From Nitrospirota bacterium (GTDB lineage Bacteria; Nitrospirota; Thermodesulfovibrionia; Thermodesulfovibrionales; UBA6898), in contig JACRMT010000002.1 of assembly GCA_016214855.1 (NCBI GenBank), positions 1 to 64,000 on the forward strand: a stretch of DNA of 64,000 nucleotides, given 5' to 3'. The notes under the pieces are model-generated. The model searched no databases. It worked only from the letters and a program-made list of their open reading frames with translations, and had not been told where the DNA came from. Shown piece by piece: positions 9,817 through 30,327 of this stretch (its first letter is position 1; every line of letters starts with the position of its first letter). The translations under genes and the position numbers were made by a program.

Positions 9817-11130
9817 TCATACCTTGATATGCAGCATTGGCAGGCCCAATCTCTGTCGTTTGTTCTCTCCCTTTAGCAACTCGCTTGTGCGTTTCGGGGT
9901 GTCGCCACGCTCTCCTTCATGCCGTGCCTGCTGTTTTGTCGGCAGACTTGCGCCATGAAACACGGTATATTTGCCGTATCTGTCGGACAGCTCATCAATA
10001 GCGCTGTATACCCTGCTCATCTTCTCTATCTTTGCCTGATCGTCAAAAAGCGTGTAATGGATATCTGTTTCATGCATCAGTCCGGCAAGCACAACCCCTG
10101 TCTGACGATAGAGATGGTGCGGACGATAAAGCTGTTGCGCTCCGTCTCTCAGAGATTCAAAGAGGTCAGCAGGATATGCTGAAGGCCGGGTCAGCTTCAG
10201 TTCGATCCCGGTATCCCTGAAATCCTGTGTCCTGAGAAAGACAACGAGGCGTGTTGCTGCAAGGTTGTGACGCCTGGCCTTTATGCAGGCATTTTCGAGG
10301 TTCTTCGAGAGTTGGGCAAAGATGAAAGCCTCGTCATGGGATGGAGGGGTGAAGGTCTTTGTTTTGCTGATCGACTGATAGCTGTTTTTGGATTCTGCAC
10401 TGACCGGATAAATGCTCCTACCGTTCAGCTCTTGCCAGATCTCATGGTATGGCTTCGAAAGATGCTTTTTTATGAACTCCTCATCTCTCTTTGCAAGATC
10501 GAGCGCGGTAACAATGCCGAACTTTCTGAGAAAGGCCGCAGTATTCGGTCCGATACCCCAGACCTTTTCTGCAGGGAGCCTGCCCAGATACAGGTGGATA
10601 TCCCTGCCCGGTATTATGGTCAGGCCATGGGGTTTATTATACTTTGATCCTATCTTGGCCAGGACCTTTGAGAGGCTTACGCCGACAGAGACGGTGATCC
10701 CCAGCTCCCTTTCGACCGTCTCCTGCATCTTTTGAGCGATCGACCCATATGAGCCGTGGAAATTTCTCCTGAGGCCTGTCAGGTCAACAAAGGCCTCGTC
10801 TATGGAATACTCCTCAACATCAGGAGAGAAGCGCCTGAGTATCTCGAACATCCTGACCGAGAAGAGACTGTAGGTCTCATAATCTGAAGGCAGGATGACT
10901 GCATCAGGGCAGAGTTTTTTTACGTCACGAAGCGGCACGCCGCGCGAAACTCCCCGCGCCTTTGCCTCATAGCTGGCAGCTGAAACAATACCCCGCTCCT
11001 TGCCGGTGATCACAGGCCTTCCTTTGAGCTCCGGATGGATCGCCTGTTCACATGACGTAAAGAAGGCATCTGCATCGAGGTGAAGGATGGCCTGAGGCCA
11101 GGAACGGATAGTTAAGGGTTGTGTGGTCAT
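9817..11130 (-). CDS. dinB: Y-family translesion DNA polymerase (DinB/UmuC type)
   Basis: This 437-residue protein has Y-family catalytic motifs: HLDADAFFTS near the N-terminus and YSIDEAFVDL near residue 110, with SKVLAKIGSKYNKP in the palm and a helix-hairpin-helix GIGPNT. The little-finger region follows (~240-370). The tail ends in a hydrophobic segment (RLGLPMLHIKV) that could be a clamp-binding motif. It lies 24 bp downstream of the lexA-like gene, an arrangement like umuDC, so it should be damage-inducible. Assignment between DinB and UmuC subgroups is uncertain. Confidence 0.9.
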   Translation of the reverse strand: MTTQPLTIRSWPQAILHLDADAFFTSCEQAIHPELKGRPVITGKERGIVSAASYEAKARGVSRGVPLRDVKKLCPDAVILPSDYETYSLFSVRMFEILRRFSPDVEEYSIDEAFVDLTGLRRNFHGSYGSIAQKMQETVERELGITVSVGVSLSKVLAKIGSKYNKPHGLTIIPGRDIHLYLGRLPAEKVWGIGPNTAAFLRKFGIVTALDLAKRDEEFIKKHLSKPYHEIWQELNGRSIYPVSAESKNSYQSISKTKTFTPPSHDEAFIFAQLSKNLENACIKARRHNLAATRLVVFLRTQDFRDTGIELKLTRPSAYPADLFESLRDGAQQLYRPHHLYRQTGVVLAGLMHETDIHYTLFDDQAKIEKMSRVYSAIDELSDRYGKYTVFHGASLPTKQQARHEGERGDTPKRTSELLKGENKRQRLGLPMLHIKV

Positions 11131-11154
11131 GCCCGGTGCTCCCGTACAATAATG

Positions 11155-11748
11155 CTAACGGTATTTTCTGACTACTGCGGTTACAACGCCAGCGATCTTG
11201 AGCTCTTTCTTCGGCCTGATAGGTTTGTACAGGGGATTGGCAGGGATTAGGGTGACGCCTTCCCCTCTCTTTTTGAGATATTTCATGGTCCATTCTCCGT
11301 CAACCTCTGCAATGACAATATCCCCGCTCTTGGGGTCCTGCCCTTTGTCAATGATCACCATATCACCGGGGAGTATGCCTGCCCCGGACATGGAATCCCC
11401 TGAGACCTTGAGCATGAAGGTGGCTGATGGGTTCTGTATGAGCAGATCATCAAGGGAGAGGGTGTCTGCAAGCTCTTCTTCTGCAGGGCTCGGGAATCCA
11501 GCCTCTACCGTGCCGAGCATCCGTAACGGCAGGGCAAGGGAGCCCGGGATGAGCCTGCCTTTTTCATCTTTTGACAAGACATTGTTCTGCTGGAGCCTGC
11601 TGACAAGCTTATGTACGGCGTTCTTGGAGCGCAGCCCTATGAGCTCACCGATCTCCGCAAAGCTCGGCATCCTGCCCTTCTGATGATAAAAATGAGCAAT
11701 GCTTTTTGCCCTCGAAAGGGTCTTTTCCTCTGACGCCTGCTTTGTCAT
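11155..11748 (-). CDS. lexA: LexA-type SOS repressor
   Basis: The 197-residue protein has an N-terminal winged helix (~1-65; MPSFAEIGELIGLRS) and a C-terminal S24 self-cleavage domain. The cleavage site Ala-Gly lies in VEAGFPS (~81-82), the catalytic serine in SGDSMSG (~118) and the lysine in WTMKYL (~155). RecA-triggered cleavage should derepress this operon. The -10 of its promoter ends only 5 bp before the ATG, so the mRNA is predicted to be leaderless. A downstream in-frame ATG would delete the recognition helix. Confidence 0.92.
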   Translation of the reverse strand: MTKQASEEKTLSRAKSIAHFYHQKGRMPSFAEIGELIGLRSKNAVHKLVSRLQQNNVLSKDEKGRLIPGSLALPLRMLGTVEAGFPSPAEEELADTLSLDDLLIQNPSATFMLKVSGDSMSGAGILPGDMVIIDKGQDPKSGDIVIAEVDGEWTMKYLKKRGEGVTLIPANPLYKPIRPKKELKIAGVVTAVVRKYR

Positions 11749-13669: not shown

Positions 13670-14968
13670 TTATGATGCCTTAGGCAGTTCCTTGAAGACG
13701 TTCCAGGTCTTGAGGATGTCCACGGCCCTCTGAAGCTGGATATCGTCCTTCTCATCCACTTCAATTGGTGCGGTCTCCTTTTCCTCTCCTTTTGGATCTG
13801 CCTGTTCATTCTTCAGGTGGCGTTCAAGGTCTTTTTCCCTGAGCACGGGATGCTCTTTTGTGCCGTTCTTCGCCTCGAGCTTCACGATGATGTCCGGAGT
13901 GATGCCGGTCCCCTGGATGGACTTGCCTTTTGGTGTGTAGTATTTTGCCGTTGTCAGCCGGAGACCTGAGCCGTCGGAGAGCGGTATTACGGTCTGGACA
14001 GAACCCTTGCCGAAGGTCACGGTGCCGAGGGTCACGGCCCTGTTCCAGTCCTTGAGCGCGCCTGCAACGATCTCGGATGCGCTTGCGCTTCCCTGGTTTA
14101 TGAGCACTACCATGGGGAGCTTGAAGTGGTCGTCATTATTTGTATAGAGCTCGGATTTTTCACCGCTTCTTGTTTTCGTATACACAACAAGCTTTCCCTT
14201 TTCCAGAAACTGACTTGCCACGTCAATAGAGCTGTTGAGCAGACCCCCTGGATCGTTCCTGAGATCAAGGACAAGAGATGTTATTTTTTCCTCGTTCAGT
14301 CTCTTCAGCGCAGCGGCAAGGTCATTTGAGGTCTGCTCCTGGAACTGATTGATCTTTATATATCCGATGCTGCCTTCGAGGACCTTTGATTTTACGCTCT
14401 TGACCTTGATGATCTCGCGTGTCAGGGTGAAGTCCTTACTATCTTTCCAGCCTTCTCTCATGATACTGATGACAACGGTTGTCTTGGGCGTACCCCTCAT
14501 TTTTGAGACTGCATCATGCAGGGTCATGTCGCGCGTGGTGACGTTGTTGATCTTGACGATCTTGTCCCCTGCCTTTATGCCTGCCCTGAATGCAGGCGTG
14601 TCTTCAATGGGAGCAATGACCGTCAGCATGCTCTCTTTCATGCCGATCTGGATGCCGATGCCGCCGAATTCGCCCTTTGTTTCAACCTGCATATCCTTAT
14701 ATCCTTCTGCGGTCATGAAACTCGAGTGCGGGTCAAGTGAACTGAGCATGCCCCTGATCGCCCCATACACAAGGTCTTTTGACTTCACGTCCTCCACATA
14801 ATGTTTCTTTACCATCGAAAGGACCTCGGTAAAGGTCTTGAGCTCCTCATATCCCTCGCCTTCAGCGCTCACTGCAGTGACAGACAGCCTGCCAAGGACT
14901 ATGCCTGTGGTTGCCACTGCCAGGACAAGGAAGAATACAAGAAATGTCTGCTTCTTTATCTTAAACAT
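13670..14968 (-). CDS. ctpA: C-terminal processing protease, S41 family
   Basis: This 432-residue exported protease has an N-terminal TM/signal anchor (~7-30). A PDZ domain (~90-170, with GGIGIQIG and AGDKIVKI) precedes the tail-specific protease domain. The catalytic serine lies in GSASASEIVAGAL (~300) and the lysine in TFGKGSVQ (~325). It cleaves proteins from their C-termini in the periplasm and in other bacteria often controls peptidoglycan hydrolases. It is the last gene after ftsE, ftsX and the EnvC-like gene, consistent with wall remodelling. Confidence 0.93.
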   Translation of the reverse strand: MFKIKKQTFLVFFLVLAVATTGIVLGRLSVTAVSAEGEGYEELKTFTEVLSMVKKHYVEDVKSKDLVYGAIRGMLSSLDPHSSFMTAEGYKDMQVETKGEFGGIGIQIGMKESMLTVIAPIEDTPAFRAGIKAGDKIVKINNVTTRDMTLHDAVSKMRGTPKTTVVISIMREGWKDSKDFTLTREIIKVKSVKSKVLEGSIGYIKINQFQEQTSNDLAAALKRLNEEKITSLVLDLRNDPGGLLNSSIDVASQFLEKGKLVVYTKTRSGEKSELYTNNDDHFKLPMVVLINQGSASASEIVAGALKDWNRAVTLGTVTFGKGSVQTVIPLSDGSGLRLTTAKYYTPKGKSIQGTGITPDIIVKLEAKNGTKEHPVLREKDLERHLKNEQADPKGEEKETAPIEVDEKDDIQLQRAVDILKTWNVFKELPKAS

Positions 14969-14987
14969 GCTGATACGACCTCCTGAT

Positions 14988-16118
14988 TTATCTCTTCTTC
15001 TTTTTCAGCCATTGGGCCGGGTCAAGCGGTTTACCTTTGTACCTGATCTCAAAGTATATTCCCTGAGCGTTGAGGACGCCTGATGTCCCGACCTTTCCTA
15101 TTACCTGGTTCTCTTTTATTATATCCCCAACCTTTGAAAAAATCTCGGCAAGGTTGCCGTAGAGCGTGTGATACCCGCTGCCGTGGTTGATGATAACGAG
15201 CTGGCCGAACCCTTTGAACCATTCGGCGAAGATCACTTTGCCCCCGTACACTGCCCGCGCATCTCCGGGAGAGTCTGTCTGGATATGGATGCCGTTTCTG
15301 AAGACCGGCGTATCAAACTGCGGGTCCTTGTGGGAGCCGTAGGGGATCGCTATTCTCCCGTCTGCAGGCCAGAGGAGTTTTCCCTTGAGCTGGGTAAAGC
15401 CTTTTCCTTCATAATCGCCTGTTTTTGTCGATTCCCTGATGATCTCGAGCAATCTGCGCGATGCCTCTCTCAGTTCAGCGATCATCTTCTGACGCGTTGC
15501 CTTTTCTGTTCTGACAGAGTGGAGAATGTTCTCTTTTTCCCTTTTCTTTTCTGCGAGCTCCGCTTCTTTTGACCTGACCCTGTCCTGCCGGGTCTGGAAC
15601 TCCAGCCTGAGGCCTTCGAGTTTCTGCTGTTCCGTATCCAGCTTCAGGAGGTTCTCACGGTATGCTTTCTGGATCTTCTGTTCATGGAGGGTGATATGCT
15701 CAAGGTACTTCCAGGTCCTCATGAGCTGCGCCATGTCTTCGGCGCTCAGCACCTGCGTCAGGACATCTCCACCGTAACCGAGGCGGTTCATGGAGCGGAG
15801 CTTTCTTCTGATCCAGTTCTTCTGCCGCTCAAGGCTGCGTTTTATCTTCTCCATCTCGACGGCAATGCTGCTGATGGCGGCCTCTGTCTGCTTCAGATTG
15901 GAGCGGTACTTCCTGAGGTCTGTTTCTGCGGTGTTCAGCTTTTTGCTCACGGCATCAAGCTCGTTCAGCACTGAGGCCTCACGCTCCTGGGCAGCGCTCA
16001 GTTTCTTTTTTTCTTCGTCGATCTTCTCCTGGATCTTCTTATACTCCAGCTCAGACGGGGCAGCAACGGAGATCGAAGGACAGATGAGCGCAAGGATAAG
16101 GAGAGCGGCAAGGATCAT
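14988..16118 (-). CDS. envC: EnvC-like murein hydrolase activator (degenerate LytM)
   Basis: This 376-residue exported protein has a signal peptide (~1-19), a long coiled coil (~25-240) and a C-terminal LytM/M23 fold. The zinc ligands of active M23 enzymes are missing: the usual HxGxD position reads RNGIH, the YxHL position YGNL, and the final histidine position IYFEIR. It is therefore likely an activator of an amidase, like EnvC, and not a hydrolase itself. Its start shares one base with the ftsX stop (TGATG), and FtsEX is the known partner of EnvC. Confidence 0.9.
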   Translation of the reverse strand: MILAALLILALICPSISVAAPSELEYKKIQEKIDEEKKKLSAAQEREASVLNELDAVSKKLNTAETDLRKYRSNLKQTEAAISSIAVEMEKIKRSLERQKNWIRRKLRSMNRLGYGGDVLTQVLSAEDMAQLMRTWKYLEHITLHEQKIQKAYRENLLKLDTEQQKLEGLRLEFQTRQDRVRSKEAELAEKKREKENILHSVRTEKATRQKMIAELREASRRLLEIIRESTKTGDYEGKGFTQLKGKLLWPADGRIAIPYGSHKDPQFDTPVFRNGIHIQTDSPGDARAVYGGKVIFAEWFKGFGQLVIINHGSGYHTLYGNLAEIFSKVGDIIKENQVIGKVGTSGVLNAQGIYFEIRYKGKPLDPAQWLKKKKR

Positions 16119-16999
16119 CAGTATTTGAGCCTTCCCAGTGCGATCGCTGCCCCAAAAATGCCGAGCAGCATGCCGATCACGGGAAGGAAAAGAAATACGC
16201 CGGAAGGGAAGAGAACTGTCTTGAAAAGCGGCACCGAGATGATGAGCCTGAGAAACAGAAAATGATGAAGAAGAAATACGGCGGCAAGGCTTGAGACCCC
16301 AGCGGTTATGCCGATAGCAGCACCTTCGATAATGAAGGGGGCCCGGATGAAGCCTTTTGTTGCGCCGAGGAGCTTGAAGGTCTCGATCTCATCGGTCCTG
16401 CGATAAAAGAGGATCTTCACGGTGCTGTAGCAGACGAATACAATGCCGGTGCTGAGGATGATGGCAAGGACAAGGCCGGTTATCTTCACGCCGGCTTTGA
16501 TGTTCTGCAGGACCGTGAGGAATTTTTCGCCGTAATCGACCTCTGAGATGCCTTTGATCCTTTTCGTCTCGTCCGCAAGCTGTTTGACCGAATCTGTGCC
16601 CATTGCATCCTTTTTCAGCTTTACGTCGAGAGAGTCGGGCAGCGGATTATCCTCAAGTCCTTCCAATACATACTGGGAATTCTTGAGCGTGCTTTTTAAC
16701 TCTTTGAACGCTTCGTCCCGGGAAATGAACTTGACCGAGGAGACCGCCCGCTTGGCCCTGACCGCACTGATCACCTGATCGATCTTCTCCTGAGTGAGAT
16801 TGCTGTCGAGGTACGCGACCAGAGAAAATTTCTCAGGCAGGTTCCGCGTGGCTATTTCGATATTGTAAAAGACGAAAAAGCTGATGCTGATGATGAAGAG
16901 CCCGGCAAAGATCGTGAGCATGGAGAGCAGGTTGATCCACTTATCTTTTTTCAGGCTTTGCAGAGCAAGTTTGAATGCATAGGATGTCGGCATCAGCAT
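16118..16999 (-). CDS. ftsX: Cell-division protein FtsX
   Basis: This 293-residue membrane protein has four predicted TM segments: one at ~22-45, then after the extracellular loop (~50-165) three in the C-terminal half. This is the FtsX topology. The loop contacts EnvC-type activators and couples ATP hydrolysis by FtsE to wall hydrolysis at the septum. It overlaps ftsE by 7 bp and the envC-like gene by 1 bp. Confidence 0.93.
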   Translation of the reverse strand: MLMPTSYAFKLALQSLKKDKWINLLSMLTIFAGLFIISISFFVFYNIEIATRNLPEKFSLVAYLDSNLTQEKIDQVISAVRAKRAVSSVKFISRDEAFKELKSTLKNSQYVLEGLEDNPLPDSLDVKLKKDAMGTDSVKQLADETKRIKGISEVDYGEKFLTVLQNIKAGVKITGLVLAIILSTGIVFVCYSTVKILFYRRTDEIETFKLLGATKGFIRAPFIIEGAAIGITAGVSSLAAVFLLHHFLFLRLIISVPLFKTVLFPSGVFLFLPVIGMLLGIFGAAIALGRLKY

Positions 17000-17673
17000 A
17001 CCCCCTGGCTTACCAGCGTCCCGGCCTCAAGCCGAAGCACCCGTTTGCCCGAGTTCATATAGAGTTCCCGGTTGTGTGTTGCGATCAGGATGGTCGTGCC
17101 CTTCGCATGAATATCCTTGAATGTCTTCAGTACGTCTTCAGCCGTATCAGGGTCGAGGTTGCCGGTCGGTTCATCTGCGAGCAGGACGGTCGGTTCTGCG
17201 ACGATCGCACGGGCGATCACGATCCTCTGCTGCTCTCCCCCGGAAAGTCTCCTGGGATAACTGTCAGCTTTGTGCCGGAGATTGACGGTCTTGAGCGCTT
17301 CATAGACCCGCATCTTGATCTCCCGTTCACCAATGCCGCGGATCCTGAGCGCAAGCGCAATGTTCTCGAAAATGTTCCTGTTATCGAGGAGCCTGAAGTC
17401 CTGGAACACCACGCCGATATTGCGGCGCACAAAGGGGATGCTTGACTCCCGGAGAGATCCTGTTTCCCATCCGGCGATCGTGATGTTGCCCTGGTCAGGC
17501 ATCTCTGCAAGGTACACCAGCTTGAGCATGGTCGTTTTGCCCGATCCGCTTGGCCCGGTCAGAAATACCATCTCTCCCTTTTCGATCGAGCAGGTCACCT
17601 CCCGCAAAGCAGTCTGAAGCTCATACTCCTTGGTGACGTTCTCAAAATGTATCATTGGGTCTGACTGTTCCAT
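16993..17673 (-). CDS. ftsE: Cell-division ATP-binding protein FtsE
   Basis: This 226-residue ABC ATPase has Walker [11 protein letters not shown]-loop region [12 protein letters not shown], signature LSGGEQQR and Walker [12 protein letters not shown]. The LLDNRN stretch after the Q-loop is typical of FtsE. It partners with FtsX. Its ATG directly follows the stop codon of the upstream conserved gene, so all five genes from 18180 down to 13670 probably form one transcript. Confidence 0.95.
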
Positions 17674-18180
17674 CTAGTTATCTTCTTCTTTCATGATGTA
17701 GTCGAGGAGGATATCATCGAGGCTTTTGGTTATCTGTTTTTTGTCAATCTCCGGCTCAGAAGGCTTTTCTTTCTCAGGTGCTGCAGATCGTGTCTGAGCG
17801 GGTTCGACAGGTTTTTCTTCTGCAGGCGGCGCAGGACTTGTCTGAACGGGTGCTGCCGGGACTGAAGGGTGAGGGTGAAGAGCTGTTGCTTCTGCGGTTG
17901 GCCCAGGCGCCGGCTGGGAAGCGGCAACATCCTGGGTATGTTTGCCGGCGATCAATTCCTTGATCATTGCCTTGTGCTGTTCCTTCATCATTTCCTGCAC
18001 GGTTTCTTTATAGTCAGGGGATGATGCTATTTCTGCGTAGCTTACTTTCTTTCTGGAAAGAATGGTCCCCTTGTTATAAAGCAGGGTGATAATGTGCGGG
18101 TTCTTGAGACCGCTGTCCTCGGTCTGAACGTGATACACGATTCCTTTATACGATATGTTGGTGTTATAGCCGACGAGCAT
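17674..18180 (-). CDS. Conserved protein of unknown function upstream of ftsE
   Basis: From ATG 18180 the protein has 168 residues. A compact N-terminal part (~1-75; YNTNISYKG, YHVQTEDSG, ITLLYNKG) resembles conserved uncharacterised proteins of delta-type bacteria. A Pro/Ala/Glu-rich linker (~85-140) and an acidic C-terminal helix follow. The frame remains open for ~135 codons upstream, but those overlap dppA on the other strand and look like an antisense shadow. A TATAAT ends 7 bp before this ATG, hinting at a leaderless start. Function unknown; its position suggests a link to division or envelope. Confidence 0.65.
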   Translation of the reverse strand: MLVGYNTNISYKGIVYHVQTEDSGLKNPHIITLLYNKGTILSRKKVSYAEIASSPDYKETVQEMMKEQHKAMIKELIAGKHTQDVAASQPAPGPTAEATALHPHPSVPAAPVQTSPAPPAEEKPVEPAQTRSAAPEKEKPSEPEIDKKQITKSLDDILLDYIMKEEDN

Positions 18181-18375
18181 ATTGACTATTATAATAGAAA
18201 CAGGGGCTTCGGGCATATTATTTAGCATAGGGCCCAAGTAGGGGAGAAAACAGTCATCACCTTTTGCTCTTTCCTCTGACATTTCCGGCCTGACAAATAT
18301 CCCATACGATCGTTCTCTGCGATATGCCATTCCCCTCATTGCAAAACAGGAAAATATTACAGTATCCTTAATTCC

Positions 18376-22073: not shown

Positions 22074-22076
22074 ATA

Positions 22077-22145
22077 ATGCAGTTTCGCTGAATGAAATAA
22101 AGGACTGCGCTCTTGCTTTTTTCCGCGAGGGGAAGGCGAGAAGGC
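22077..22145 (+). pseudogene. 5' remnant of an MmeI-like restriction-methyltransferase gene (copy 1)
   Basis: The DNA is closely similar to 23194-23264, which encodes SLNEIKDRALAFSREW, the opening of MmeI/YeeA-like class I SAM-dependent DNA methyltransferases. Here a one-base deletion just after ATG 22077 shifts the frame and a second indel lies further on, so only a degraded reading (SLNEIKDCALAFF) remains. It starts 4 bp after the dppC stop. Confidence 0.7.
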
Positions 22146-22184
22146 AAATCAGATCGTATTCAGGACCGTGCAAGGGGGGCAAAG

Positions 22185-23045
22185 ATGCCAGAAAAATCAT
22201 TAGCTGTTTTTGAAGGGGAACAAATCCGCCGTCATTACGACGAGGAGACCGAAACATGGTATTTTTCGGTAGTGGACATTATACAGGTGCTGATTCAGCA
22301 ACCTGATTACAAGACTGCCCGAAAATACTGGAACAAGCTGAAAGAGAGGCTCAAGAAAGAAGGAAGTGAGTCGGTGACAAATTGTCACCAACTGAAAATG
22401 GAAGCAGCCGACGGCAAAAAATATCTTACTGATGCTGCTAATCCTGGAACACTGCTCCGCTTGATACAGTCCGTTCCGAGCCCTAAAGCAGAGCCGATCA
22501 AGCTCTGGCTGGCCAAAGTGGGTTATGAACGCTTGCAGGATATGAGTGATCCGGCACGCTCGCTTGACCGGGCGCGTGAATATTGGCAGCAGCATGGCAG
22601 AAGCGAAAAGTGGATTCAGCAGCGGATGATGGGGCAGGAGACGCGTAATAAGCTGACCGACTACTGGCAAGGACACGAGATAACAAAGGAAGAGGAGTAT
22701 GCTATCCTGACCAATATAATCCACCAGGAATGGTCGGGGGTATCGGTAAAAAAGCACAAGGCCTTAAAGGGACTGAAGACGCAGAACCTCAGAGACCATA
22801 TGAGCGAAGCAGAACTGATCTTTACGGCGCTTGCCGAACTTTCAACCCGGCAAATTGCTGAAAGTGTGAGCGCAACCGGCATGGATGAAAATAAAGAAGC
22901 AGGTGAAAAGGGCGGTGGTATTGCTAGGAAGGCAAGGCGTGAACTGGAAGCAAAAACAGGGAGGAAGGTAGTTACCGGAGAAAACTTCCTGCCGCCGGGC
23001 TCAATAAAGTCATTGCTGAAACAAAAAAAGAAAGGTCGTAAATGA
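22185..23045 (+). CDS. BRO family / phage antirepressor-like DNA-binding protein
   Basis: From ATG 22185 (preceded by AAGGGGGG) the protein has 286 residues. Residues ~1-110 match a Bro-N domain (WYFSVVDIIQVL, YWNKLKERL, LLRLIQSVPSPKAEPIKLWLA in pieces), as in phage antirepressors and DinD-like proteins. The C-terminal half is helical, with AEGEL-type helices and a basic tail (KQKKKGRK). It lies between two copies of a methyltransferase 5' end, so it was probably brought in by recombination. It may regulate or respond to DNA damage or phage, but its role here is unknown. Confidence 0.8.
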   Translation: MPEKSLAVFEGEQIRRHYDEETETWYFSVVDIIQVLIQQPDYKTARKYWNKLKERLKKEGSESVTNCHQLKMEAADGKKYLTDAANPGTLLRLIQSVPSPKAEPIKLWLAKVGYERLQDMSDPARSLDRAREYWQQHGRSEKWIQQRMMGQETRNKLTDYWQGHEITKEEEYAILTNIIHQEWSGVSVKKHKALKGLKTQNLRDHMSEAELIFTALAELSTRQIAESVSATGMDENKEAGEKGGGIARKARRELEAKTGRKVVTGENFLPPGSIKSLLKQKKKGRK

Positions 23046-23188
23046 AACGTAAATTTGATAGCGGCCTTGCATTCCGGTTTAAGGCTACACAAAGAGTTTT
23101 CAATCTGGGATTTTATGAAACTGGCTTCGGAAGCAGACAGGTCTATTTGTGGTACAGAGCTCTATTCGACAATATAAGGCAAATTTGA
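23042..23188 (+). CDS. Possible small protein (48 aa) coupled to the BRO gene
   Basis: ATG 23042 overlaps the BRO stop in ATGA, giving a 48-residue basic, aromatic-rich peptide (begins MKRKFDSGLAF). No family is recognised. It may be a real coupled gene or the remnant of a larger one; it ends 5 bp before the second methyltransferase fragment. Confidence 0.35.
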   Translation: MKRKFDSGLAFRFKATQRVFNLGFYETGFGSRQVYLWYRALFDNIRQI

Positions 23189-23193
23189 TTGCT

Positions 23194-23310
23194 ATGCCGT
23201 TTTCGCTGAATGAAATAAAGGACCGGGCTCTCGCTTTTTCCCGCGAATGGGAAGGCGAGAAGGCCGAACGCGCTGAGGCCCAGACCTTCTGGAATGATTA
23301 TATTATCTAA
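23194..23310 (+). pseudogene. 5' remnant of an MmeI-like restriction-methyltransferase gene (copy 2)
   Basis: ATG 23194 opens a 38-codon frame, MPFSLNEIKDRALAFSREW followed by GEKAERAEAQTFWND, matching the N-terminus of MmeI-like type IIG restriction-methyltransferases (normally ~900 residues). It ends abruptly at TAA 23308-23310, inside the 3' end of the opposite-strand nuclease-like gene. The matching C-terminal piece appears at 26835-26951. Confidence 0.75.
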
Positions 23311-24448
23311 CCGCTTCTGACTTCCCGACTATAAGATCAACGCTTAGGCCGCTGTTTGAGCTCTCAAAAAATTTATCAATGTCGTCAATTGCTTCATAAG
23401 ATAGGTATCTCACTTCCTTATCCATGCCAAGTTTTTTAAAGGAAGGTCGCTTTAACTGGTCAAACACGCGGTTCTTTTTAGCAGTTGGGGCCACTATAAA
23501 AAGAGGATAATTTATATTTGGCGCTATAATCTTCAAATCCGCAAAACGGAGAAGCCCAGAATATATTGCCGTAGAATGTTCAACTTCAAATGCTGCATCA
23601 ATTCGAAATTCCTCTTTCCATACAACATCGATATTTTCAACATATCTTGCTGGCATATCTATACCTGAAGAAAATGTAGGCTCAAAATCACTGAAATCAA
23701 ATTCACGTTGTATTTTCGGTTGATCATTACGCGGGATCCATACTTTTGCGCCAGTTTTTAGTCCCAAATGAACAAGCTTCCACTGTATCCTTACATGATC
23801 TGACAGTTCCTTCTCCTTAAGAATTTCCTCTACGTCTTCTGGCTGGAGCTCTACGACGATATCTTCTTTTACTTGTAATTGCTCTTCTGTATTTCTGACT
23901 TCGTATTGTTGCCCCTGCTTGATGCGCAAAAGTATGGAATAGAGATCGTCATACTTGCCATAAAACTCTTCGAGCTTGTCATGGGCGATACCGGTAAAGC
24001 CCTGTGGGCGATAATTTCTCCGATAGCCAAACAGGGAATTTATAGTTGTAAAAGGAAGATCTATCTCGATTGGATTTGCAATAAAATAAATCAGGCTCCA
24101 AACTGTGGTCGTATCACCTGCCAAATTTTTCCATAGTTCTCTTGATAAGTCAGAGTTTACTGCCGTTGCTGCTATCTTGCCCAATAGTTTTATCGTGTCA
24201 CCTTCTATTATGAGAATGTCATCTCCTGGTGACATATTTTCAAAACGCCCACGATTGATTTTGGTATCTCGCGAACCCCAAACTGTGACTGGCCTGTCCG
24301 TAAAGATGTTTCTCAGGATGTTTTGTATGTTGCGATCTAAGTATTGAAAAAGACGGTTTCGCGGCACTTTGTTCTTTATGGTGTCCTGGTAATGTACCAT
24401 TTGTTCATAGTTGCCTGGTGCCATATAAGCTATGAAAATATTTCTCAT
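23303..24448 (-). CDS. EVE-like domain fused to a PD-(D/E)XK-like nuclease domain
   Basis: This 381-residue protein has two parts. Residues ~1-165 resemble the EVE/PUA-like fold (IFIAYMAPGNYEQ at the start, TVWGSRD, WSLIYFIANP, GYRRNYRPQGFTG), often a reader of modified bases. Residues ~260-365 contain IDVVWKEEF, AAFEVEHSTAIYSGLLR and YPLFIVAP, a pattern fitting a PD-(D/E)XK nuclease core with catalytic D and ExE. I infer a modification-dependent restriction enzyme or similar; I cannot name an exact relative. It is last in a three-gene minus-strand cassette, 26 bp after the MazG-like gene. Confidence 0.6.
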   Translation of the reverse strand: MRNIFIAYMAPGNYEQMVHYQDTIKNKVPRNRLFQYLDRNIQNILRNIFTDRPVTVWGSRDTKINRGRFENMSPGDDILIIEGDTIKLLGKIAATAVNSDLSRELWKNLAGDTTTVWSLIYFIANPIEIDLPFTTINSLFGYRRNYRPQGFTGIAHDKLEEFYGKYDDLYSILLRIKQGQQYEVRNTEEQLQVKEDIVVELQPEDVEEILKEKELSDHVRIQWKLVHLGLKTGAKVWIPRNDQPKIQREFDFSDFEPTFSSGIDMPARYVENIDVVWKEEFRIDAAFEVEHSTAIYSGLLRFADLKIIAPNINYPLFIVAPTAKKNRVFDQLKRPSFKKLGMDKEVRYLSYEAIDDIDKFFESSNSGLSVDLIVGKSEAVR

Positions 24449-24474
24449 ATCAACACGCCATAGTTTGCTGTAGA

Positions 24475-24816
24475 TTAGAGTTCATCGTATTTCCTCGCTG
24501 TATTCGTGGCCTTTTCTGACGGATACTTTTTCTCGTTGACCGCAATCTTTTCCATCATGATGTCACTGATATTCAGCTTATACTTTCTGGCAAGCAAGAA
24601 GGCGAAGATGAGAACATCAGCCAGTTCTTCTTTCAGTTTTCCGACGTTGACGTCTTCGGCAGTTTTCCAGAGAAAAAGCTCATTGAGTTCGGCAGCCTCG
24701 ATAGACAAAGCCAGTGCCAAGTCCTTAGAGTTGTGAAATTGCTCCCAATTGCGCTCATCTCTGAACTTGATCAGAAGGTCAGTTATTTCTTCTATTTCGG
24801 TTTTATCTTTTTTCAT
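24475..24816 (-). CDS. MazG-like nucleotide pyrophosphohydrolase
   Basis: From ATG 24816 the protein has 113 residues and matches the RS21-C6/dCTPase-like MazG group: RDERNWEQFHNSKDLALAL, SIEAAELNELFLW, then EELADVLIFAFLLA and NEKKYP. The acidic residues EAAEL and EELAD bind magnesium. Members hydrolyse (d)NTPs to NMP and pyrophosphate. The start overlaps the upstream TPR gene by 14 bp; seven further codons are open upstream but less likely. Its place between a metallopeptidase-like and a nuclease-like gene suggests a joint role. Confidence 0.85.
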   Translation of the reverse strand: MKKDKTEIEEITDLLIKFRDERNWEQFHNSKDLALALSIEAAELNELFLWKTAEDVNVGKLKEELADVLIFAFLLARKYKLNISDIMMEKIAVNEKKYPSEKATNTARKYDEL

Positions 24817-26782
24817 ACAGTTTCTTAGCTTCCTCATATTCCTTCTTGAACGCTAACCCTGTATCCAGAAACGGGTCTATTACCTGAAAGGCTGCGTACA
24901 TATACGCGAGGAGCTGAAGCCCGGAGAACTCTTTGCCGGGGATGCTTATTAAGGAGTATTTCTTATCATGATTAGCCGGGTCGATCCCCTGCCTGCCTAA
25001 CATAGCTATCTCAAGGCCAACCTTCTGTATCTCCGGCAGTTCCTTGTCCTGAAAATATTGCAGTGCGCCGAGGCAATACATGGTGATTGCCATTTGACCG
25101 GCGGGCTCTTGTTGAATGCCTGAAAATCCCCCCTCGCCCCCCTTTGCTAAAGTGGGGTAGGCGGGTTCGGCGAATTCGATATCAACAACACTCTCGGCAC
25201 TCGTTGCAGGCCTGCTCCGGTATTCACTCTCTTCAATAAGGCTGAAATAAGCGGCTACTTTAAGTTCTTTTGCCCATTTCCGGATCAGCTCGTGCGCCTC
25301 AACAGCTTTAGCGTTCTTCTGATACTTCAGATAATCGGTATAGAACTCCTTTGCTGTTTTCATCTGAGGAGCAGTTGCCTTGAACAGAGGGCTCATGTCA
25401 TAGCCGAATAGATCCCTGAACTGAAAGGCATGGGTAAGACTTAATATAATATTGGCGTTTCTGATCTTCGCAGGGGTGTGCTCAAGTATCTGCCTGTTTG
25501 TTGCCGCATCGATATATTCCTTGAGCAAAGACAGAAGCGAAAGAAACTGAAAAGGCCGCAAGTTTGGGGATGTCTTATTAAGAAAGTCCTCGATGAAAAG
25601 ATCGATCGGTGTGTTATAGGTCTGGCTGTTGCTTCCGCTAAATAGGGCGTCGATATAGTCAGCGATGACCTTGTCGCCAAGACCGTCCCTGTTAAGCCGC
25701 TGAAGCGTCGGTTCATTGTCTCTGATGAACTGCTCTTTCTGTGCCTTGGTTGCGACAAAGAGATAATTAGCGTTTACTTTGCGGCACTGCACGGCTAAAT
25801 CAAGATGGACAAGCTCGTGCATCATCAGATGGGCTACGGCCAATCTGTCTTTCTTGAATCTTATGATATGGTTATCCCGATTATAATTCTCCGCCATTTC
25901 CATTTTCGCAGGTGTCGGGATGGTATCATCTTCAATAACATCAATGACCTTTCCTGATTCGATGGCCAGCCTTTGGGAATACTGATTAAACATCTCCGCC
26001 GGATCAATTTGTTGAACTGCTTTTGAACTTACTTGCCGTGCCATCTCTACAGCATTGTTGTGCACGGGGTGACCTGCTTTAGATTTCTTCAGCGCCTGTA
26101 TGGCGAAGTCGAAGGCCTTGAGATGGTCGCCCTTCGCATCATGTATCATGCTCAGGGCATAGAGGGTATTTGGATAGCTACTGTTTATAGCCAGTGCCGC
26201 TTCAAAATACCGCTCCGCATCCTCTACCCGGTTTAACTGAATGAGATTGGCGCCTATGTTATTCATGGCGATGTGATCATCAGGCTTTACTACAAGGGCA
26301 TGTTCATAATAGGACATCGCGGTTGTGATGTCGTTTTTTGACCGGGCGAAGATATTGCCCATCATGGTCAAGGCGTGTGTGTTTTTCGGGTCCCAGCGCA
26401 GGGCGTCGATCAGACAGTTTATGGCTTCTTCCTGGCTGCCTTCGTCAGAGTATATCTGGCCTAATATCCTGTGATATTCCGAGACAGTGGGGTTCTTCTT
26501 GATAAGTTTTTCGAGGATCGGTTTTGCTTTGTTAAACTTGCCTGTTTCGCAATATTTGACAACAGTGTCAAAGTCGGATTTCTGGCTGGTAATTGCGGTT
26601 GTGTCGATCTCTACGGTGATCAGGTCATCTTGAATCTCGACTTTCGGTTTGAAGGGCCCGAAGGTATAGTAGCTGGCAATCTCTTCTTTTAAGAGGGAGA
26701 GGTCTTTATCTTCCTTCCTTCCTTCCTTAGCGGCAGGGAAAAGGTTGAAGAGAAAATCATCAATTTTATGTATGATAATCAT
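24803..26782 (-). CDS. TPR-repeat protein with HExxH zinc-peptidase motif
   Basis: This 659-residue protein has at least five tetratricopeptide repeats at ~70-240 (for example AINCLIDALRWDPKN, AMSYYEHALVVKPDD). Residue ~320 has HLMMHELVHLDLA, a HExxH metal-binding motif, followed by helical regions. No signal peptide is seen, so it is probably cytoplasmic. Residues ~540-556 (AYPTLAKGGEGGFSG) are encoded by an interspersed CCCCC-rich repeat inserted in frame. It is first in the cassette. GAGG lies 10 bp before the ATG. Function unknown; a protease scaffolded by TPRs is an inference. Confidence 0.7.
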   Translation of the reverse strand: MIIIHKIDDFLFNLFPAAKEGRKEDKDLSLLKEEIASYYTFGPFKPKVEIQDDLITVEIDTTAITSQKSDFDTVVKYCETGKFNKAKPILEKLIKKNPTVSEYHRILGQIYSDEGSQEEAINCLIDALRWDPKNTHALTMMGNIFARSKNDITTAMSYYEHALVVKPDDHIAMNNIGANLIQLNRVEDAERYFEAALAINSSYPNTLYALSMIHDAKGDHLKAFDFAIQALKKSKAGHPVHNNAVEMARQVSSKAVQQIDPAEMFNQYSQRLAIESGKVIDVIEDDTIPTPAKMEMAENYNRDNHIIRFKKDRLAVAHLMMHELVHLDLAVQCRKVNANYLFVATKAQKEQFIRDNEPTLQRLNRDGLGDKVIADYIDALFSGSNSQTYNTPIDLFIEDFLNKTSPNLRPFQFLSLLSLLKEYIDAATNRQILEHTPAKIRNANIILSLTHAFQFRDLFGYDMSPLFKATAPQMKTAKEFYTDYLKYQKNAKAVEAHELIRKWAKELKVAAYFSLIEESEYRSRPATSAESVVDIEFAEPAYPTLAKGGEGGFSGIQQEPAGQMAITMYCLGALQYFQDKELPEIQKVGLEIAMLGRQGIDPANHDKKYSLISIPGKEFSGLQLLAYMYAAFQVIDPFLDTGLAFKKEYEEAKKLYEKR

Positions 26783-26812
26783 AAGTTATAGACCTCTTGG
26801 GGTGATGCCGCA

Positions 26813-26818
26813 ATTATA
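26813..26818 (-). promoter_or_regulatory. Possible -10 element of the TPR-MazG-EVE cassette
   Basis: On the minus strand TATAAT lies 30 bp upstream of the TPR gene start. The -35 region is poor (TTAGTT at 16 bp). It falls between the cassette and the methyltransferase 3' remnant. Confidence 0.3.
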
Positions 26819-26834
26819 CCACAGGCAATATTGA

Positions 26835-26951
26835 ACTAAGAGTAAAAGCTTTGCATCAGATGCCGAGCGTGTGGCCTTCCTCTTTGAACTGTACCACCAA
26901 TACACCAGCCTGCTGCCGGGACCGGAGAAGAAGAAACCGGGAAAACGCTGA
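26835..26951 (+). pseudogene. 3' remnant of an MmeI-like restriction-methyltransferase gene
   Basis: An open frame of 38 codons ending at TGA 26949-26951 encodes FASDAERVAFLFELYHQYT and then LLPGPEKKKPGKR. This fits the C-terminal end of MmeI-like methyltransferases (a helix with RVxFLFxLYxxLT, then a basic tail). A stop lies just upstream in frame, and no start exists. Same strand as the two 5' remnants; the whole catalytic body is missing and the minus-strand cassette lies in its place. Confidence 0.65.
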
Positions 26952-27014
26952 AGGAATTGATCTGCATGGGGAGATAAAGGCTTCATTTTGATATAATGAA
27001 CCAGGAGGTGGCTC

Positions 27015-27227
27015 ATGAATGAACTGATTTTTATAGTCGAAGAAGACATTGATGGAGGCTACAGTGCCAATGCCCTTGGACTGTCAATATTCACTCAGGG
27101 AGATACTATCGCTGAACTGAAGGCTAACATCAAGGATGCATTAAGCTGTCACTTTGATAATGAGGGTGATATTCCTAAGGTCATAAGACTTCATCAGGTA
27201 AAAGAAGAAGTTTTCTCCTATGCCTAA
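27015..27227 (+). CDS. hicB: HicB-family antitoxin
   Basis: This 70-residue protein has a HicB-like half-RNase-H fold (LIFIVEEDIDGGYSANALG, then a helix IAELKANIKDAL). AGGAGG lies 5 bp upstream of the ATG. It overlaps the toxin gene by 8 bp. Antitoxin-first order, opposite to the broken pair at 8407-8840. Confidence 0.88.
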   Translation: MNELIFIVEEDIDGGYSANALGLSIFTQGDTIAELKANIKDALSCHFDNEGDIPKVIRLHQVKEEVFSYA

Positions 27228-27474
27228 AATACCCAGAGACTTATCTGGCAAAGAGCTGGCCACTCTACTTGATCAATATGGCTACAAGATTACGAGGCAG
27301 ACAGGCAGCCATATCAGGTTGACGACTAATACTGGCGATAAAGAACACCACATTACAATTCCGAACCATACCCCGCTAAAAGTAGGGACGATGAATACAA
27401 TCATCAGGGATATTGCGGGACATTTGAAGATAGATAGACAGTTGTTTGTTCAGGAACTTTTTAAAAATTCCTGA
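27220..27474 (+). CDS. hicA: HicA-family mRNA interferase toxin
   Basis: This 84-residue toxin has the double-stranded-RBD-like fold: DLSGKELATLLDQYGYKITRQ, then the catalytic histidine in GSHIRL, and HHITIPNHTPLKVGT. It is uninterrupted, unlike the copy at 8407-8631. It cleaves mRNA and is held by the upstream HicB. It lies at the edge of the restriction-system remnant, a typical accessory position. Confidence 0.9.
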   Translation: MPKIPRDLSGKELATLLDQYGYKITRQTGSHIRLTTNTGDKEHHITIPNHTPLKVGTMNTIIRDIAGHLKIDRQLFVQELFKNS

Positions 27475-27516
27475 GGCCTTCAAAAATGCATGACTGACTG
27501 TCATAATCCTTAACAT

Positions 27517-30327
27517 ATGCCCCTATTCCTTAAAGAGGCCGCTAATGCAACGCCTGATCCTGACAGGGCGCTTAAGAACCTTTCATCGTTTCTTGAGGAG
27601 AACCCTGAACGGGGCGGCGAGCTTCAGGAACATATCAGAAGCATCTCCCTTCTTTTCAGCCACAGTCAGTTCCTTGCAAACTACAGCAATACCCATCCCG
27701 AAGACCTTTTTGCCGCGATCAGCACGATTGAGAATGCCCCTGAACGGGAAGCTGTCGCTATTGCCCTGAAGCGGGAGTTTGATGCTATTAGTGAAGCCCC
27801 TCAGAGGACTACGCTGCCTCTTTACATGAACGCTGTACGCAGGTTCAGGCTGAAAGAGATCCTGAAGATAACGCTCAGGGACATTCTGAAAAAGGCTGAT
27901 CTCGTGGATATCATGTTCGAGATGAGCTGTCTTGCGGATGTGATCACCGAAGGTTCTCTCAATATCATCAGGCAGTATGTCAGCAGCATCTACGGATCCC
28001 CTGAAGACGAGAAATTCTCGGTGATCGCACTGGGGAAGCTCGGCGCAGAAGAGCTGAACTTCAGTTCTGATGTTGATTTCATGTATGTGTACAACACCGA
28101 GATCGGCGAGACGTCAGGCGTGTTGAACAGTCAGGGCACGCGTACGAACAGGATATCGAACCATGAATATTACTGCAAGATCGGCGAGGAGCTTTCCAAA
28201 TTCCTTTCCCAGAACACTGAGGCAGGGTTCGTGTACAGGGTCGATCTGAGACTGAGGCCTGAGGGTCAGCGCGGAGCAATAGCCCTTACGCTGAGAGGAT
28301 ATGAGATGTATTACGAATCCTGGGGAAGGGCATGGGAACGGGCAATGCTCCTGCGTGCGCGTCCTGTGGCTGGGGACAAGGGGCTCGGAAGGGATTTCAT
28401 GGAGATGATCAGACCCTTTGTCTTCAGAAAGTATCTCGACTTCAGTGCCATTGACGAGATCAGCAAACTCAAAACGCGCATCGATGCTACATTCAAAAAG
28501 ACTGATATCAAGAGAGGGTATGGAGGCATCAGGGAGATAGAGTTCTTCAGCCAGGCGCTTCAGCTTATCTATGCAGGACGGGAACCTCTGCTCAAAGAAC
28601 GGAATGTGCTGAAGATACTGCACCGCCTCTTTCAGAAAGGGCTCATCGGGATGGACGACTATGGTATCCTTTCTGACAATTACCGGTATCTGAGGACCCT
28701 TGAGCACAGGCTGCAGCAGGTGAATGACCTGCAGACCCATACCCTGCCGGCCGGTGATGCGGAACTGCAGGTATTCAGCAGGAAGATGGGCCATGCATCA
28801 AAGAGCGTGTTTATTGATGATCTTGAGGAGAGAAGAACGCAGGTGCGCACCATCTATGATTCGCTCTTTGGGGCCAGGAAAGAAGAATCTTCAACAGGCC
28901 ATACGCTCTTTGACGAAGAGTTCTCTGACACTGAACTGAAGGAGTTCCTGTCAGAGGCAGGATTGAGAGATGTTGATAAGGCCCTGCGAAATATCCGGTC
29001 GATCAGGGACAGTACCTTCAACTTCCAGACCCTGAGGGGCAGAAGACTTCTCTCTGATATCCTCCCCATGTTCGTTGACAGCGGTCTCAGGTCCGGCAAT
29101 CCTGATATTGCGCTGAACCATATTCAGGCATTCGCTGAACTCCTCAGCACAAACGAGTCTTATCTTGAAGTATTCAGCAAGAACAGGACGCTCATCGATC
29201 TTATTGTCTATGTATTTTCCCAAAGCGACTATCTGTCGAAGATGCTCATGGCCCGGCCCCAGCATCTCGAGATGATAGGCTGGCAGGAGACCCTGCGCAA
29301 GAGTCTTGGCGCGCTTCGCTCCGAGATAAGAGAGGCCATGTCAGAAGGCGGATCAATAGGCGATGCTGTGCGGCTGGTGAAGCAGATGGAAGAGATCAGG
29401 ATAGGACTGCTTTTTCTCCAGAAGAGGACCGATGTGATCAAGGTGACCAAAGGACTGAGCAGGACTGCAGAGGCGGTTCTCTCCTCATCGTTCGAGCAGA
29501 GCGGCGAGGCGCAGAAGGGAATGGCGATCATGAGTTTCGGCAAGTTAGGCGGCAGGGAGATCGCCTTTGGATCTGATCTCGACCTTATATTCGTGTCCCA
29601 GGGGGATGTTCAGTTCGAGCAGACCAAGGCTGCTGAAAAACTGCTCAGGATGCTTATCTCATACACCCGTGACGGCATTGCATACAGCGTGGACACGCGA
29701 CTGCGGCCTGAAGGTTCAAAGGGCCCGCTGGTCTCATCAGTTGAGGCATTCAGAAGATATTATGCAGAGTCTGCAGCCTTCTGGGAGTTTCAGGCGCTGC
29801 TCAAGGCCAGACCTGCTGCCGGAGATATGAAGACAGGTTGTGCATTCATGCAGATGGCGCATGAAACACTTGCTGCTCATGGCTCGAAGGTAACTGCATC
29901 CGATATCAGGCAGATGCGCGAGAGGATCATGCGCGAGCGCGCCAAAGAGTCTGAGGGATACGATATCAAGCTCGGCCCCGGCGGCATTGAAGAGATCGAG
30001 TTCATGGTCCAGTTCCTGCAGTTGAAGAACTGCGCAAGGCATAGGACGCTCCTTGTGCAGAATACGCTTGCAGCGATACGCAGGCTTGCAGTTGCGGGTG
30101 TCATTGCGCAGGCAGAGGCGAAGATGTTAACGGATATATATATCTTTTTCCGCACGATAGAATGCCTCCTGAGATTACGGGGCGAGGCTGTTCTTCAGAA
30201 GGATGAAGAAAGCCTCAAAAGCGCTTCGGAGTTCATGGGATGCAAGGATAGCGCCGAGTTATCAGAGCATATCGAGAGCAGAAGAAAAGCCGTAAGAGGA
30301 GGCTTTGACCGTCATCTGCCTCTTTAA
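27517..30327 (+). CDS. glnE: Glutamine synthetase adenylyltransferase / deadenylase
   Basis: This 936-residue protein has the full two-domain GlnE layout. The N-terminal nucleotidyltransferase (deadenylylation) has GKLGAEELNFSSDVDF near residue 170; the C-terminal one (adenylylation) has GKLGGREIAFGSDLDL near residue 675. A regulatory helical region lies between, and each half is followed by a GGIREIEF/GGIEEIEF helix. It reversibly modifies glutamine synthetase to match nitrogen supply. It begins 42 bp after hicA and is unrelated to it. Confidence 0.95.
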   Translation: MPLFLKEAANATPDPDRALKNLSSFLEENPERGGELQEHIRSISLLFSHSQFLANYSNTHPEDLFAAISTIENAPEREAVAIALKREFDAISEAPQRTTLPLYMNAVRRFRLKEILKITLRDILKKADLVDIMFEMSCLADVITEGSLNIIRQYVSSIYGSPEDEKFSVIALGKLGAEELNFSSDVDFMYVYNTEIGETSGVLNSQGTRTNRISNHEYYCKIGEELSKFLSQNTEAGFVYRVDLRLRPEGQRGAIALTLRGYEMYYESWGRAWERAMLLRARPVAGDKGLGRDFMEMIRPFVFRKYLDFSAIDEISKLKTRIDATFKKTDIKRGYGGIREIEFFSQALQLIYAGREPLLKERNVLKILHRLFQKGLIGMDDYGILSDNYRYLRTLEHRLQQVNDLQTHTLPAGDAELQVFSRKMGHASKSVFIDDLEERRTQVRTIYDSLFGARKEESSTGHTLFDEEFSDTELKEFLSEAGLRDVDKALRNIRSIRDSTFNFQTLRGRRLLSDILPMFVDSGLRSGNPDIALNHIQAFAELLSTNESYLEVFSKNRTLIDLIVYVFSQSDYLSKMLMARPQHLEMIGWQETLRKSLGALRSEIREAMSEGGSIGDAVRLVKQMEEIRIGLLFLQKRTDVIKVTKGLSRTAEAVLSSSFEQSGEAQKGMAIMSFGKLGGREIAFGSDLDLIFVSQGDVQFEQTKAAEKLLRMLISYTRDGIAYSVDTRLRPEGSKGPLVSSVEAFRRYYAESAAFWEFQALLKARPAAGDMKTGCAFMQMAHETLAAHGSKVTASDIRQMRERIMRERAKESEGYDIKLGPGGIEEIEFMVQFLQLKNCARHRTLLVQNTLAAIRRLAVAGVIAQAEAKMLTDIYIFFRTIECLLRLRGEAVLQKDEESLKSASEFMGCKDSAELSEHIESRRKAVRGGFDRHLPL

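Follow-up and report, generated by a model that had tools for sequence, protein, structure and literature searches.

Restriction systems are usually viewed as self-contained cutting machines. A tested precedent for the repeated recruitment of proteases by unrelated nuclease systems is given by the nuclease–protease pairs of Hachiman, AVAST, Lamassu, DRT and canu, in which a trypsin-like or caspase protease accompanies a nuclease of the metallo-beta-lactamase fold (Tuck et al. 2025, PMC12799240). Restriction enzymes with EVE/YTH readers, together with the McrBC type IV systems, have been described by Bell et al. (2020, PMC7641849; 2024, PMC11090510); in a text-term search, MazG is absent from both, and TPR is mentioned a single time, in a legend of the later one. 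Here we describe a locus in the first 64,000 nucleotides of contig C2 (the whole stretch analysed, hereafter the window) from the 3.3-Mb genome of a Nitrospirota bacterium, whose nearest named relatives, among those found, are groundwater metagenome-assembled genomes (MAGs) of Nitrospirae. Three consecutive minus-strand genes encode TPRM, a protein of TPR repeats followed by an HExxH...E zinc-peptidase-like region (24803–26782), a MazG-like pyrophosphohydrolase (24475–24816, with an alternative start at 24837) and EVE-nuclease, a putative modified-base reader joined to a restriction-nuclease-like part (23303–24448). The locus is probably an acquired anti-phage cassette, combining a modification-dependent restriction endonuclease with a TPRM–MazG accessory that also attaches to other restriction systems.

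Like the pairs of Tuck et al. (PMC12799240), TPRM is, by its sequence, a protease-like gene placed beside nucleases of unrelated defence systems. Unlike them, it carries HExxH together with TPRs, is often joined by MazG, and accompanies nucleases of several other folds, that of the window having the acids D...ExE. EVE-nuclease resembles the EVE/YTH-reader enzymes and McrBC in joining an EVE-superfamily reader to a nuclease, and its N-domain is nearest to that of Thermococcus gammatolerans McrB. In contrast to McrBC, it has no AAA GTPase, combines the reader with an ExE-type nuclease in a single chain, and is linked to TPRM and MazG; neither an AAA nor a McrC domain occurs in the three window proteins, so the locus does not count as a McrBC type IV system. 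The first-pass annotation, made from the window alone, knew of no described system with this composition. Searches of the open literature, which reach few subscription papers or preprints, gave no account of a TPR-HExxH protein accompanied by MazG or by nucleases of these kinds; a MazG-containing system was predicted in 2026. In the text of that work, DefensePredictor highlights an unvalidated predicted system that includes a MazG domain, and TPR appears in the legend of its figure (PMC13092281); the composition of the system is not readable from this text, so the same module may be flagged there.

The three genes, delimited by mechanical calling of open reading frames (ORFs), all exist where they had been proposed, and their tight coupling is borne out. 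TPRM and MazG overlap by 35 nt if MazG begins at the ATG at 24837, or by 14 nt if it begins at 24816; the latter start, kept in a related genome (G003), is the more likely. A gap of 26 nt separates MazG from EVE-nuclease. A promoter scan of the locus gave no excess over shuffled sequences, and terminators showed no clear excess. The cassette lies on an acquired island inserted between oppC (to 22073) and glnE (from 27517). These genes stand side by side in five congeners, with an alignment gap of about 75–130 bp, and 5.4 kb apart in the window, where the inserted stretch occupies 22074–27516. GC content is 0.41–0.47 over 23000–28000 versus mostly 0.50–0.54 outside. TPRM, MazG and EVE-nuclease occupy the same oppC–glnE site in G003, with ~79% DNA identity. 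A further genome (G024) retains MazG and, after it, the initial 19 codons of EVE-nuclease; judging from sequence, this is a decayed cassette of the same gene order.

EVE-nuclease divides into a putative EVE/YTH-type reader (residues 1–178; 23915–24448) and a restriction-nuclease-like part (residues 204–381; 23303–23839), both of which support its initial naming. Residues 217–357 match the PADLOC REase_II profile (8.4e-15), while the protein has no Pfam family above cut-off and its profile finds no credible match among PDB sequences. An AlphaFold2 model built from 14 sequences, with homologues 52–76% identical to the window protein, is mostly confident over residues 1–178. This modelled reader superposes best on the T. 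gammatolerans McrB N-domain (6p0f; Z 14.2, root-mean-square deviation 3.0, 155 residues aligned), and also on EVE-type proteins and YTH domains (Z 8–9.6), suggesting a McrB-like reader fold. D274 (23627–23629), E288 (23585–23587) and E290 (23579–23581) are invariant in 20 of 20 aligned relatives and form the motif IDVxW...FEVExST (D...ExE). The ExE pattern is that of BamHI-type PD-(D/E)XK enzymes. With the REase_II match, these invariant acids mark the C-terminal domain as nuclease-like.

A total of 111 plasmid records hold places that match EVE-nuclease, chiefly its REase_II part, and in several of them the annotation reads type II restriction endonuclease. The full-length homologues come from Nitrospirota, Parcubacteria, Roizmanbacteria, Piscinibacter, a further Proteobacteria-labelled MAG, Ignavibacteriales, several Verrucomicrobia, Kiritimatiellae and Scalindua. 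Because neither TPRM nor MazG adjoins the gene in 7 of 13 full-length loci, EVE-nuclease represents a family able to stand free, whose members are probably modification-dependent nucleases. An HNH endonuclease family lies directly 3′ of EVE-nuclease in two distant genomes (L043, 9246–10175; L050, 9211–10140).

TPRM is a TPR-HExxH protein as first read, with a TPR_2 match (2e-15) and an HELVH motif at residues 322–326 (25805–25819). The motif is conserved together with Glu398 (in DLFIED; 25589–25591), a candidate third zinc ligand. Both are kept in 17 of the 18 aligned TPRM sequences, among them homologues down to 22% identity, the exception being a diverged orphan (L118). The AlphaFold2 model, predicted from an alignment of genome loci with plasmid and phage rows left out, has a mean predicted local distance difference test score of 86.7. 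It places HExxH on helix 316–335 and Glu398 on helix 370–404, near short strands. This placement is as expected of a gluzincin; TPRM is a putative zinc peptidase. The C-terminal ~390 residues match no Pfam family at E up to 5, M48 families included. The M48 protein BepA likewise unites an HExxH peptidase and TPRs (PMC7950410); the NCBIfam BepA model, compared by sequence, matched the TPR part of TPRM only, far below its cut-off. A profile of the peptidase part found no credible match among PDB sequences and listed no gluzincin family, a result that excludes none.

The identification of the middle gene as MazG-like holds, with PF12643 matched at 4e-14 (53.1 bits against a cut-off of 27) and the ExxE...ExxD motif present as EAAE...ELAD. 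Its nearest solved relatives are the pyrophosphatase 4qgp (7e-18) and dCTP pyrophosphatase 1, DCTPP1/RS21-C6 (about 9e-15). It shares its sequence family and ExxE...ExxD motif with the latter but belongs to a TPRM-linked group, and from sequence we infer a MazG/dCTP-pyrophosphatase-like enzyme. Human DCTPP1 is reported to have a high affinity and preference for dCTP and 5-modified dCTP (PMC7162842).

Among the genomes searched, an even but non-exhaustive sample, the genes recur together. MazG lies directly downstream of TPRM in 12 loci: the window, L041, L057, L058, L071, L069 (a Hymenobacter plasmid), L070 (a Marivirga plasmid), L073 (a Microcystis phage record), and L103, L116, L174 and L175 from Bacteroidota samples. 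The pair thus spans Nitrospirota, Bacteroidota chromosomes and plasmids, and one phage record. In most of these loci the two genes overlap or are separated by no more than about 20 bp. MazG is truncated in L058 and frameshifted in L057, L071 lies at a contig end, and the L070 genes are frameshifted. Since any matching MazG is present in only 26 of 81 related genomes, mostly as one copy each, chance adjacency is very unlikely. In the MazG tree, the G024 protein clusters with eight TPRM-linked MazGs (92/89), and this cluster is nested in a larger set that has full support; the MazGs beside EVE-nucleases in L042 and L043 fall with background MazGs. In the phage record, a 22-kb sequence deposited as Microcystis phage Mwe-JY31, TPRM, MazG and a Schlafen-group-3 helicase stand in a row (14131–18365).

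We then compared the nuclease partners of TPRM across 37 loci, counted by hand with tiny 3′-end fragments left out, taking as a partner any restriction or defence nuclease gene beside TPRM or within about 3.5 kb. Such genes accompany TPRM in 23 of the 37; MazG is the only associate in two (L058, L071) and 12 have neither. The partners are EVE-nuclease (window, L041, L042, L048, L051), Schlafen-group-3 helicases (L057, L070, L073, L103, L116, L126 and L175, and upstream of TPRM in L069), McrBC-like genes (L069, L125), type III restriction genes (L055, L104, L127, L174, L182, L184), type IIG enzymes (L183, and L106 with a DrmD-like helicase) and BREX brxA-brxB-brxC (L110), whose start lies within about 60 bp of TPRM. 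TPRM and its partners are on opposite strands in L048, L051, L127 and L182, and some Schlafen-group-3 proteins carry GIY-YIG or S24 parts. The TPRM tree requires 11 switches of partner label, so that each of the EVE, type III and Schlafen-type partners must have been recruited repeatedly; counting starred branches only, EVE and Schlafen-type partners each joined at least three times and type III at least four. Because nuclease partners were swapped repeatedly, the locus is not a fixed three-gene system, an interpretation that we rejected. The three-gene defence cassette first proposed therefore stands in part: its genes co-occur with one another and with defence genes, but the nuclease varies, and what recurs is TPRM, frequently accompanied by MazG. 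None of the outcomes that the first-pass annotation named as refuting its proposal arose in full. The window holds one combination of two parts: a reader-nuclease able to exist on its own, and TPRM–MazG as a mobile accessory.

Among the Schlafen-group-3 helicases beside TPRM, two bear a C-terminal S24 (LexA-like) peptidase domain (L057, 5564–7981; L126, 9890–12286), a hint of self-cleavage triggered by damage. In L116, a gene for a 363-residue protein without Pfam or PADLOC match (10372–11463) separates MazG from the Schlafen helicase; by eye, the protein resembles a reader-type N-terminus fused to an Mrr-like nuclease.

TPRM is patchily distributed, being present in 6 of 296, 15 of 296 and 5 of 241 genomes in three sets. 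It was found in none of 299 Proteobacteria genomes, a weak negative lacking a positive control, and IMG/VR viral contigs yielded no relative when queried with the single protein and with the alignment. Defence is the best explanation of the locus because its genes are patchy, occur on plasmids and a phage record, are inserted, are often decayed and lie beside restriction systems. An ArdC-like anti-restriction protease was considered and dropped, as TPRM is linked with restriction genes, although the phage copy could still fit.

Several observations weigh against reading the locus as a defence cassette. A PD-(D/E)XK core and a gluzincin fold around HELVH had been expected from structural searches. 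The REase_II match and invariant D...ExE favour the former, but the nuclease core is poorly modelled by AlphaFold2. For the latter, HExxH and Glu398 are conserved and lie on helices, but no solved peptidase was matched: the whole TPRM model, searched against PDB and BFVD, matched through its TPR part only, the lists being filled by TPR proteins and the peptidase domain not having been searched alone. The TPRM loci are moreover a sample, some of them fragments (L127, L128, L184) or contig ends. Finally, the 12 loci with neither MazG nor a nuclease neighbour comprise ten similar orphans (L105, L107–L109, L111–L115, L117), L118 and the fragment L128. The TPRM tree includes seven of the ten, which make up a single clade (100/100) nested among defence-linked proteins; L118 lies elsewhere on a long branch. 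Some members of the ten-orphan group have internal deletions, one genome (G494) holds two copies, and some orphans lie near umuC-like and SRAP-like genes, named by eye from sequence.

As an anti-phage cassette, the locus would work as follows. Incoming DNA would be recognised through a modified base, bound by the EVE domain, and then cut by the nuclease. MazG would remove dCTP-type nucleotides, perhaps modified ones, either hindering phage synthesis and repair, or barring salvaged modified nucleotides from host DNA. TPRM would act as a zinc peptidase that cleaves a protein once its TPR array has bound a partner or signal; this cleavage would most likely control the partner nuclease, by activation or alleviation, or serve as a back-up effector. 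More tentatively, and with somewhat less than even confidence, we propose that bacterial restriction has a general plug-in in TPRM, with or without MazG. TPRM would be a metallopeptidase family not described before, gating or backing up nuclease systems that are unrelated to one another (types IIG, III and IV, BREX, Schlafen-group-3 helicases and EVE-nucleases), and a metalloprotease counterpart of the trypsin and caspase nuclease–protease pairs. If so, a further protease class and an attack on the nucleotide pool would form a control or back-up layer shared by many restriction systems, and the nuclease–protease principle reported in 2025 would be extended. A testable role would also follow for the MazG genes of defence islands and for a TPR family that lacks a Pfam entry for its catalytic part.

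The same genes can be explained in other ways. EVE-nuclease often stands alone and the TPRM–MazG pair occurs without it, as would be seen if an autonomous nuclease and a pair of separate function were merely defence-island neighbours united by transfer. We find this somewhat unlikely, given that TPRM and EVE-nuclease have met at least twice, in Nitrospirota and Verrucomicrobia, that EVE-nucleases also gained MazGs of another clade (L042, L043), and that the window genes are closely spaced. The accompaniment by TPRM of nucleases of many kinds, not of one sensor, would also suit a dedicated safety protease, which degrades or processes its partner nuclease upon attack on host DNA as a cis-encoded form of restriction alleviation. 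MazG would then clear modified dNTPs that would make host DNA a target, a role that the preference of DCTPP1, its best-studied relative, for dCTP and 5-modified dCTP would favour (PMC7162842). Most EVE-nucleases, on the other hand, have neither TPRM nor MazG, and we regard this role as unlikely. Least credible, and in our view highly improbable, is that neither gene serves in defence: TPRM would be a TPR housekeeping protein of peptidase-like fold, and MazG would have a sanitation role. A housekeeping gene found alone had been named as grounds for abandoning the idea, and some TPRM genes do stand alone, as one clade without defence neighbours (the seven intact orphans on the tree) besides the degenerate L118. 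Most, however, lie by defence genes, and the patchy presence, the plasmid and phage records, the empty sites in congeners and the neighbour counts all speak against a housekeeping function.

Around the cassette, a broken restriction-methyltransferase locus had been suggested. What remains is a remnant of 38 codons (23194–23310, plus strand), weakly MmeI_N-like (E 0.0099, below the Pfam cut-off), and a whole broken locus was rejected; this is the only methyltransferase trace beside the window EVE-nuclease, the one copy scanned gene by gene. The proposed BRO and hicBA neighbours are upheld for BRO and hicA. The BRO-family gene (22185–23045, plus strand, in an ORF from 22113; Bro-N 2e-8, PDC-S13 2e-120) lies outside the cassette proper. 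The hicB-like ORF and hicA (27015–27474, plus strand) lie inside the same inserted stretch; HicA_toxin is matched at 9e-12, but the hicB-like ORF has no Pfam match. BRO is flanked by two plus-strand copies of a 64-bp direct repeat (22083–22145 and 23201–23264, 90.6% identical); the repeat includes the start of the 38-codon remnant, which contains the second copy. Because G003 (L041) has a single copy and no BRO, the gene may have been added later or lost in G003.

Isolated 3′-end fragments of TPRM, about 30–75 codons long, occur in L072 (7680–7769 and 8931–9029), L060 (2481–2756) and G001 (C28, 6282–6377), the last after small toxin–antitoxin-like ORFs. Two of them, in G249, lie on either side of a module of two genes that includes a DUF2204 nucleotidyltransferase, and one, in G094, adjoins nucleotidyltransferase/HEPN genes resembling those upstream of TPRM in L042. 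These fragments may mark a recombination or attachment site.

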